From the NCBI GenBank assembly GCA_017618135.1, contig JAFZUV010000001.1, positions 65,627 to 122,377 of the forward strand: a stretch of DNA of 56,751 nucleotides, written 5' to 3'. Shown here one piece after another: positions 13,744 to 14,449 of the stretch. The notes under the pieces were generated by a model. It did not search any database. It was not told where the DNA came from and saw nothing but the letters and a program-made list of their open reading frames with translations. Source of the DNA: Clostridia bacterium (lineage in GTDB: Bacteria > Bacillota > Clostridia > Oscillospirales > Acutalibacteraceae). The translations under genes and the position numbers were made by a program. How positions within the stretch are numbered: position 1 is the first letter of the stretch; the number at the start of each line of letters is the position of its first letter.

Positions 13744-13820
13744 GTCTTCGTAGCTCAGCTGGATAGAGCACTCGCCTCCTAAGCGAGGGGTCGGAGGTTC
13801 GAATCCTCTCGAGGACGCCA
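13744..13820 (+). tRNA. tRNA-Arg, anticodon CCT
   Basis: The 77-base cloverleaf has a 7-bp acceptor stem (GTCTTCG with CGAGGAC, one T-G pair), D arm TAGCTCAGCTGGATAGAGCA and anticodon stem CTCGC/GCGAG. The CCT anticodon is at 13778-13780. The T arm contains GGTTCGAATCC, and the 3' CCA is encoded. It decodes AGG. A strong hairpin terminator follows, then an unusual hairpin array. Confidence 0.97.
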
Positions 13821-13822
13821 TC

Positions 13823-13859
13823 AAAAACGCGTGATTTGTCTACCAAATCACGCGTTTTT
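13823..13859 (+). terminator. Bidirectional terminator after tRNA-Arg
   Basis: A perfect 15-bp stem has A5 on one side and T5 on the other and a seven-base loop (GTCTACC), starting two bases after the CCA end. It can stop transcription in both directions. It also marks the left edge of the hairpin array. Confidence 0.85.
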
Positions 13860-13861
13860 GT

Positions 13862-14022
13862 GTTTGTGTCCGCGAAGCGGCACAACATCGTTTTTCGCGT
13901 CAGCGAAAACATCGTTTGACAGGGCGAGCCCTGTCAACATCGTTCGGTCGTCAGACCGACATCGTTTCCCGCGGACACAAAACGAAGTTGCCTTCGGCAA
14001 ATGATGTTGCGCTTCGCGCAAA
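13862..14022. repeat. Hairpin array with repeated AACATCGTT linkers
   Basis: About 160 bases hold a regular structure. Direct copies of AACATCGTT(T) start at 13884, 13908, 13936 and 13958 (the last with GACATCGTTT). Between them are perfect hairpins with unrelated stems: TTTTCGC/GCGAAAA (loop GTCA), TTGACAGGG/CCCTGTCAA (loop CGAG) and TCGGTC/GACCGA (loop GTCA). A 12-bp outer stem (13863-13874 with 13970-13981) encloses them. It competes with a small CCGC-GAA-GCGG hairpin. Then come two TTC-loop hairpins (TTGCC/GGCAA, TTGCGC/GCGCAA). Inverted one-mismatch copies of the linker start at 13980 and 13999. The array lies immediately upstream of the four-helix-bundle gene. Function is unknown. Confidence 0.85.
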
Positions 14023-14056
14023 CTTATGGTAACATAAAGCCCAAGAGGTGATAGTT

Positions 14057-14410
14057 TTGAAAGAAGATACGCTTTTCGAGCTTTCAATGCAGTTGTCTGT
14101 GGATGTGTTGAAGCTTACCCGGGATCTTCGGGCAAAGCATGAAACAACCATTTCCAATCAAATCAGCAGGAGCGCTACCAGCGTTTGCGCCAATATTGCT
14201 GAAAGTAAATACGGTCATAGCCGCGCTGACTTTATCGCCAAACTCGAAATCGCCCTCAAAGAAGCAAACGAAACAAATTATTGGCTTAGACTTTTGCTTG
14301 ATACAAACAGAATCAGCGAAGAAGATTACAAAATCACCGATAAACTATGCGGCAATATCCGCAGACTTCTAATCGCCTCCTGCAAAACCGCTAAATCAAA
14401 TCAAAACTAA
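14057..14410 (+). CDS. Four-helix-bundle protein (TIGR02436/S23 type)
   Basis: This 117-residue all-helical protein has the family signature QISRSATSVCANIAES, then DFIAKLEIALKEANETNYWL. It belongs to the group first seen in 23S rRNA intervening sequences and related in fold to the Avd accessory protein of diversity-generating retroelements. No reverse transcriptase or template repeat is nearby, and there is no rRNA here. The TTG start at 14057 has AGAGGTG six bases upstream; a GTG at 14048 is also open. The biochemical role of stand-alone members is not known. The hairpin array directly upstream and a hairpin at each end suggest one genetic unit. Confidence 0.85.
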   Translation: MKEDTLFELSMQLSVDVLKLTRDLRAKHETTISNQISRSATSVCANIAESKYGHSRADFIAKLEIALKEANETNYWLRLLLDTNRISEEDYKITDKLCGNIRRLLIASCKTAKSNQN

Positions 14411-14420
14411 TAATAAACTC

Positions 14421-14449
14421 CCGGGCTTCCGATTATTCCGGAAGCCCGG
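14421..14449. terminator. Strong hairpin after the four-helix-bundle gene
   Basis: CCGGGCTTCCG pairs perfectly with CGGAAGCCCGG across a seven-base loop. The nearest T run begins about ten bases later, so it may be a terminator with a spacer or only a structural boundary. A second small hairpin, CCTCC-GAA-GGAGG, lies at 14488-14500. Confidence 0.6.

Follow-up and report, generated by a model that had tools for sequence, protein, structure and literature searches.

The locus raises the question of why several copies of one short linker should alternate with hairpins whose stems are unrelated in sequence, and what such an array does between a tRNA gene and a small protein gene. The window, i.e., the whole stretch of 56,751 nucleotides that was analyzed, carries the array at positions 13863 to 14021, between a tRNA-Arg gene and a gene of the IVP type (Table 1). 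The original prediction, made from the letters alone, described four linkers 22 to 28 bases apart, three hairpins (7, 9, and 6 bp with loops GTCA, CGAG, and GTCA), a 12-bp outer stem, and two TTC-loop hairpins with inverted linkers, and all of these were recovered. Linker starts in the first half-array are spaced by 24, 28, and 22 bases, the outermost pairs of hairpins 1 to 3 overlap the linker ends, the outer stem pairs perfectly, and the inverted linkers are each one base off the exact inverse. What had been overlooked was the preceding tRNA, the IVP gene behind the array, and the cargo genes of its relatives.

Table 1. Features of the element and its tRNA neighbor (window coordinates)
Feature	Coordinates	Strand	Remarks
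tRNA-Arg (anticodon CCT), element adjoins its 3' side	13744..13820	+	ARAGORN; Rfam
Hairpin 0, 17-bp terminator-like stem, loop TCTAC, 3' of the tRNA CCA end	13822..13860	+	
Outer stem, 5' arm, 12 bp	13863..13874	+	
Linker copy 1, AACATCGTT	13884..13892	+	heptamer ACATCGT at 13885-13891
Hairpin 1, 7 bp, loop c(GTCA)g	13892..13909	+	
Linker copy 2, AACATCGTT	13908..13916	+	
Hairpin 2, 9 bp, loop g(CGAG)c	13916..13937	+	
Linker copy 3, AACATCGTT	13936..13944	+	
Hairpin 3, 6 bp, loop c(GTCA)g	13944..13959	+	
Linker copy 4, GACATCGTT	13958..13966	+	one change relative to AACATCGTT
Outer stem, 3' arm	13970..13981	+	
Second half-array, inverted linker	13981..13989	-	AACGAAGTT on +; one mismatch
Hairpin 4, TTC loop on +, c(GAA)g on -	13988..14000	-	
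Second half-array, inverted linker	14000..14008	-	AATGATGTT on +; one mismatch
Hairpin 5, TTC loop on +, c(GAA)g on -	14007..14021	-	
Weak promoter-like site, TTGCGC, 17 nt, TAACAT	14007..14035	+	by-eye reading; absent from promoter scan output
IVP / four-helix-bundle gene	14057..14410	+	TTG start proposed; ORF list, 14048-14410
Terminator-like hairpin closing the element	14421..14449		scan scored minus strand

The exact 9-mer AACATCGTT occurs six times in the window (three times in the array and three elsewhere) against 0.67 expected, and none of 100 shuffles reached six copies, so the array is not a product of chance. Its 119 nt fold with a z-score of -5.4 as DNA and -6.4 as RNA. As the original prediction had it, the array is neither a CRISPR, since its spacers are mostly hairpins and its halves are inverted, nor a plain terminator, a description that suits hairpin 0 (a GC stem followed by a T run, scored as an intrinsic terminator in the terminator scan) but not the array as a whole. 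A known RNA family was rejected as well, as nothing in Rfam besides tRNA was matched at the gathering score.

The IVP encoded behind the array has 117 residues and is a four-helix bundle of PF05635 ("23S rRNA intervening sequence protein"; E value of 1.1e-27, 96.7 bits against a curated cut-off of 33.8), also matched by TIGR02436 (E value of 5.9e-29, 100.5 bits, cut-off of 24). Its structure model (pLDDT of 94.3) has the fold of 2rld and 2gsc, placing it within the family, and also matches Avd and chains of diversity-generating retroelement (DGR) ribonucleoproteins; relatives of the protein crystallize as five chains. The S23 proteins were without known function according to the accessible part of a 2016 paper (PMC4990558).

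The same genome contains four IVP-type genes. One of them belongs to a second copy of the element on another contig (G000:C17), 86% identical over 654 bases, with identity running from the final CCA of the tRNA to slightly past the closing terminator. This copy retains all four linkers, and it sits elsewhere in the genome, adjoining a serine-recombinase-like ORF (L011, 524-2233) that runs directly into the array; its junction has CCATC in common with the tRNA end at copy 1. Between the two copies, hairpin 0 shows a double compensatory change (GA/TC to CT/AG), while hairpin 1 and the last hairpin have each lost one pair in copy 2. Hairpin 0 probably travels with the element.

To compare the insertion site among congeners, 11 tRNA-Arg(CCT) loci were fetched, of which 10 were readable. 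None of the 10 had an array with the window-type linker or a nearby IVP gene in the stretch fetched, and the presence of the element is thus sporadic. These loci were rejected as clean empty sites because they carry other repeats or hairpins or their sequence stops early. In five of the ten (L166 and L173 to L176), different repeated words exceed the shuffle maximum behind the tRNA, namely CCTGCACA in L166 and TTAGCAA in L173, L174, L175, and L176, and no IVP gene was found in these five stretches. In L169, the tRNA-Arg is followed by hairpins spaced by TATGTTA or TATGTAA, perhaps a decayed or different array; in L168 no tRNA was predicted, and an IVP-like fragment lies at a distance of 1.3 kb, while L170 ends 25 bases past the tRNA. 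At two other loci (L004, 1001-1240, and upstream of L030), tRNA-like stretches are followed by GC-rich segments sharing GGGCACCGCAAGAGGG, which look like another inserted element.

Relatives are numerous, so that the search for further copies suggested by the original prediction ended far from the single occurrence that would have spoken against it. Within the family, 141 of the 300 genomes searched carry IVP-like genes, as do 57 of 196 genomes of the class, and a scan of named genomes retained the best 80 of at least 562 relatives. The exact linker pattern matched 21 of the 300 family genomes; by eye, about seven besides the source are hairpin arrays, and the other matches examined are coding sequence. 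The linker word varies among elements. Of the 123 loci for which 150 or more upstream bases were available, 109 had three or more occurrences, within 330 bases ahead of the gene, of one of twelve words (among them ATATCAT, ACATCAT, ACTTCAC, GCTTCAT, ATTTCAT, and ACATCGT), a list compiled from the same data. The shuffles for the linker-word count, as for the hairpin, promoter, and cargo-ORF counts below, preserve base composition only. Exactly two linker runs in opposite orientation were present in 128 of the 137 arrays counted, mostly with three or four linkers per half, and we rejected the idea of five linkers per half matching a pentamer.

In 99 of the 148 arrays with enough upstream sequence to judge, a same-strand tRNA or tmRNA gene ends less than 120 nt before the array; none had one in antisense, and 49 had no tRNA just upstream. 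The genes represented comprise 31 anticodon types plus tmRNA. Of 98 element tRNAs, 32 are followed within 60 nt by the word TTGTCTA, compared with none of 95 other tRNAs. Several loci hold two elements or arrays in succession (e.g., L177 and L178), and in L150, L152, and L103 the arrays are duplicated in tandem, with a broken IVP in between in L150. Six arrays (L048, L054, L055, L061, L063, and L064) had no IVP gene within reach; L048, L054, and L064 lie behind tRNAs, with the IVP gene missing or truncated.

An ORF of at least 60 codons starting between -32 and +60 of the IVP stop was found in 83 of 150 loci, against 9 of 150 when the downstream bases were shuffled. Some of the 83 look doubtful, and 37 have a four-base overlap with the IVP gene. 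When 70-residue fragments of 20 picked ORFs were compared with Pfam, 11 had matches (two NUDIX, two AAA-type, and one each of GNAT, histidine phosphatase, glyoxalase, nucleotidyltransferase, dCMP deaminase, pyrophosphatase, and epimerase) and nine had none. The window copy lacks a cargo gene. Such diverse cargo on one vehicle, together with tandem elements such as L177 and L178, is what one would expect if the heptamer arrays were recombination sites resembling integron attC, which act as a folded single strand, used by an unspecified recombinase with the IVP as an accessory or passenger; the serine-recombinase-like ORF beside copy 2 fits this too. However, no recurring integrase was seen by eye in 20 layouts, and the protein whose residues match the sites is the IVP (see below). 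We regard recombination sites of this kind as a possible explanation, though not the one we favor.

The hairpins themselves are kept under sequence change. The 156 arrays provided 426 segments flanked by same-sense linkers. A stem of at least 4 bp adjoining the linkers (G-T pairs permitted) can form in 340 of them, compared with 15.7% of shuffled segments, and 348 of the 426 are distinct, which bears out the earlier suggestion that structure rather than stem sequence is maintained. The loops have a clear polarity. On the strand reading TCA in the linker, 136 of the 207 triloops fit c(GNA)g, and 64 of the 106 tetraloops fit c(GNNA)g; read on the opposite strand, 3 of the 207 and none of the 106 do so. 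With distinct segments only, the values are 87 of 154 and 55 of 89 (3 and 0 on the other strand), and in new loci the favored loops made up 6 of 11 triloops and 5 of 10 tetraloops, with none on the other strand. For DNA mini-hairpins, a d(gCNNGc) loop rule is also known. GNA and GNNA mini-hairpins closed on G-C pairs are described in the accessible text of PMC4686876 as extraordinarily stable, nuclease-resistant DNA. The window loops GTCA, CGAG, and GTCA, as well as the minus-strand GAA in the second half, conform to the DNA loop rule. Because the loops obey the rules for DNA mini-hairpins on one strand only, we read the hairpins as DNA rather than RNA structures, and at the level of sequence the loop rule points to folded single-stranded DNA. 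Both half-arrays share one single strand, and when it is folded, as either RNA or DNA, 50 to 54% of 5,425 linker bases pair with inverted linkers, so the linkers need not remain open.

If the array were instead a structured RNA, transcribed by read-through from the tRNA and bound by the IVP as Avd works with RNA, either for movement by reverse transcription or for regulation, the likeness of the IVP fold to Avd and to DGR ribonucleoprotein chains would be accounted for, as would the same-strand position of most arrays behind tRNA genes. Gut-1, to which half-arrays of some relatives belong, was published as an RNA, marked as certainly RNA in a table of the accessible part of the report (Weinberg 2010, PMC2864571). 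This interpretation seems doubtful to us, given that the loops follow the DNA rule, with GNYA (38) as common as GNRA (28), no C(UUCG)G loop at all, and triloops that are mostly GNA. The favored strand also flips between the halves, so a single transcript cannot hold both in the favored sense, and the recognizable promoters lie 3' of the array. Of the three possibilities in the original prediction (structured RNA, recombination target, or mobile repeat), an apparently mobile element holds up, while the RNA does not look like the right molecule for the hairpins.

Heptamers also accompany IVP genes without hairpins. In the same genome, the other two IVP genes have heptamer tandems, with lag-7 identities of 24 of 28 (L003) and 21 of 28 (L004) and best identities at other lags of at most 15 and 16 of 28. 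We fetched 17 of the 30 plasmid records matched, from five phyla, comprising 12 cyanobacterial loci (three of them near-identical Planktothrix), two from Chloroflexota, and one each from Spirochaetota, Bacteroidota, and Clostridia. Exact 7-base tandem repeats were present in 29 of the 34 IVP flanks of these 17 named loci, while only 7 of 119 control windows had heptamer tandems and none of the 34 flanks had tandems at other lags from 4 to 12. The two flanks are often mutually inverse, as in Nostoc N6, with CAATTCGCAATTCG before the IVP and TTGCGAATTGCG after it. Some plasmid IVP genes (L262, L268, L261, L260, and L270) lie amid defense genes, in settings that include cas2/cas1 (with the IVP on the opposite strand), drmD/pglX, hsdS/hsdR, and DUF1156/Swt1-HEPN.

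A sigma-70-like promoter precedes the IVP gene in 96 of 156 loci, compared with 8% of shuffles, and in 35 loci the -35 box overlaps an exact linker copy. The site in the window is weak, with its first hexamer within the last hairpin plus linker, and relatives often have fuller sites. Such an overlap would suit an operator, in which the IVP, bound to double-stranded heptamers, represses the promoter of its own gene, with the hairpins as incidental features, but we find it improbable that this is all the array does, as it leaves unexplained the kept hairpins with DNA-rule loops, the inverted halves (128 of 137), the heptamers on both sides of the IVP gene in other phyla, and the six arrays without a reachable IVP gene.

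The linker word follows the IVP protein. On a tree of 105 IVPs with 12 linker classes, obtained from 123 labeled loci after omitting 18 (no clear linker, stop codon, short protein, or duplicate), the linker changes 18 times, compared with a mean of 71.3 for shuffled labels, and none of 200 shuffles was as low. Excluding three ATTTAGC loci left 102, in 13 of which residue 3 was unaligned. Residue 63 was E in 61 of the 62 loci with A at linker base 3 and Q in 37 of the 40 with T (the rest being H, H, and R), while at residue 3 all 14 loci with C at base 7 had S and all 75 with T had N or D. From these loci we derived a rule, fixed in writing before fresh loci were fetched, in which E or Q at residue 63 predicts A or T at base 3 and N or D, or S, at residue 3 predicts T or C at base 7.

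For the same family, 60 fresh loci were fetched, of which two were already in the discovery set and seven of the remaining 58 had no clear linker, leaving 51. Base 3 was correct in 50 of 50 proteins with E or Q (one gap) and base 7 in all 49 whose residue 3 is N, D, or S, whereas shuffled linkers scored at most 39 and 41; two K3 proteins, not covered by the rule, both had C at base 7. Other families of the class provided 28 loci, 18 with clear linkers and 10 without, and here the rule was right in 13 of 13 (base 3) and 17 of 17 (base 7) covered cases, with H63 accompanying T four times, one gap accompanying T, and K3 accompanying C once. Altogether, every covered case agreed (63 of 63 for base 3, 66 of 66 for base 7), for a chance expectation of about half per call, since the linker-calling pattern allowed only A/T and T/C. 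L037 is an exception within the clade. Outside it, the cyanobacterial L156 carries E63 with A at the corresponding base and does not obey the code; because of this failure, and because most cyanobacterial IVPs carry other residues, extending the code to them was rejected. Residue 102, a candidate reader of linker base 2 with an agreement of 0.99 in the discovery set, was discarded after the fresh loci L207 and L219 broke the pattern.

The match between residues and linker suggests that the IVP family reads the linker word. The linker called constant in the original prediction is indeed constant within an element, but across elements its sequence follows the neighboring protein, and it is probably a binding site. 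As linker and protein are part of one element, shared descent accounts for some of the match; the tree shows only three changes at linker base 3, and a phylogeny-controlled sign test had one or two independent pairs on supported branches (3, 8, and 11 when all branches are counted), a number too small for its use. That joint descent on one element, with so few supported-branch pairs, would explain everything is nevertheless the least probable of the alternatives, because two residues independently sort two linker bases, with all four combinations present, and because exact linkers in an element share the variant while the intervening hairpins differ, for which unit duplication is insufficient.

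Given the observed anatomy and spread, the pairing kept under sequence change, the residue-to-base rule, and the loop rule, we think it likely that the element is a mobile cassette and that its IVP binds the heptamers, with DNA hairpins setting their spacing. From these patterns we infer that the protein physically binds, that the array acts as DNA, that it forms a platform for a ring, and that the cassette moves. Small, apparently mobile cassettes would settle behind tRNA and tmRNA genes, a typical member consisting of a terminator-like hairpin, two opposed heptamer half-arrays, an IVP gene, often with a promoter of its own, and often, at the end, a cargo gene abutting or overlapping the IVP gene. 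Each IVP would recognize the heptamer that its element carries, and the hairpins would serve as spacers that, on an exposed single strand, fold into very stable DNA mini-hairpins and draw the heptamers together into a multi-site platform for an IVP ring, a role that plain heptamer tandem repeats may play in other phyla. The IVP-heptamer complex would most likely handle the single-stranded DNA of the element during transfer to a new site, although the route of movement is the most speculative part of the proposal, and a second role of the complex may be repression of the IVP promoter, where the -35 box and the last linker sometimes overlap. A more ambitious version is tentative. It would have a transposase-free cassette in which a pentameric ring reads heptamers displayed by mini-hairpins through an amino-acid-to-base code and brings interchangeable cargo to tRNA 3' ends, with the heptamer tandems of cyanobacteria and other phyla as its hairpin-free form. 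Since the two-residue code was right in all covered blind cases, the function of the IVP is readily testable. If the proposal is true, Gut-1 and the unexplained heptamer repeats gain a partner protein, and a system in which cassettes load genes behind tRNAs comes to light in gut bacteria; its importance would be lesser if the linker-residue match were inherited linkage only.

Parts of this system have been seen before. STRR-type heptamer tandem repeats of cyanobacteria and other phyla have long been known. Those reported (STRR, TAACTGA, and GGGAATC) have 7-nt units and come from overlapping bacterial groups, and here tandems of this kind flank IVP genes in named plasmids; neither "S23" nor "four helix" occurs in the main text of the reports as far as accessible (PMC4679880 and PMC4692102). 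Gut-1 (RF01706) is an orphan Rfam family of three hairpins spaced by UGAAAU-like linkers and covers half-arrays of some relatives, which exceed its gathering cut-off of 50 (59.7 and 57.7 in L033 and 58.4 in L074), while the window array gave no match at the gathering score. It spans 77 nt of one half, and the accessible part of its description (PMC2864571) mentions no protein, second half, tRNA, or linker code. The intervening sequences of 23S rRNA that encode S23 share the protein family and the character of a selfish element in a stable RNA gene but lie inside rRNA and are excised by RNase III, with no heptamer array mentioned in the accessible text (PMC4990558). The present elements, in contrast, lie behind tRNA genes, often with cargo-like genes, and an assignment to rRNA intervening sequences does not hold, as the window copy is behind tRNA-Arg and copy 2 beside a serine-recombinase-like ORF. 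In the few element flanks read, we noticed no reverse transcriptase such as accompanies Avd in DGRs. Integron cassettes carry diverse cargo, and REP/RAYT systems have palindromes read as folded single-stranded DNA; unlike either, the elements examined had no integrase or Y1 transposase noticed beside them, but a four-helix-bundle gene instead. No report tying the IVP to an array or heptamer was found in a literature search that covered mainly open-access journal papers. The IVP, the rRNA intervening sequences, and the heptamer repeats are thus separately known, and a system that combines them would be new in kind.
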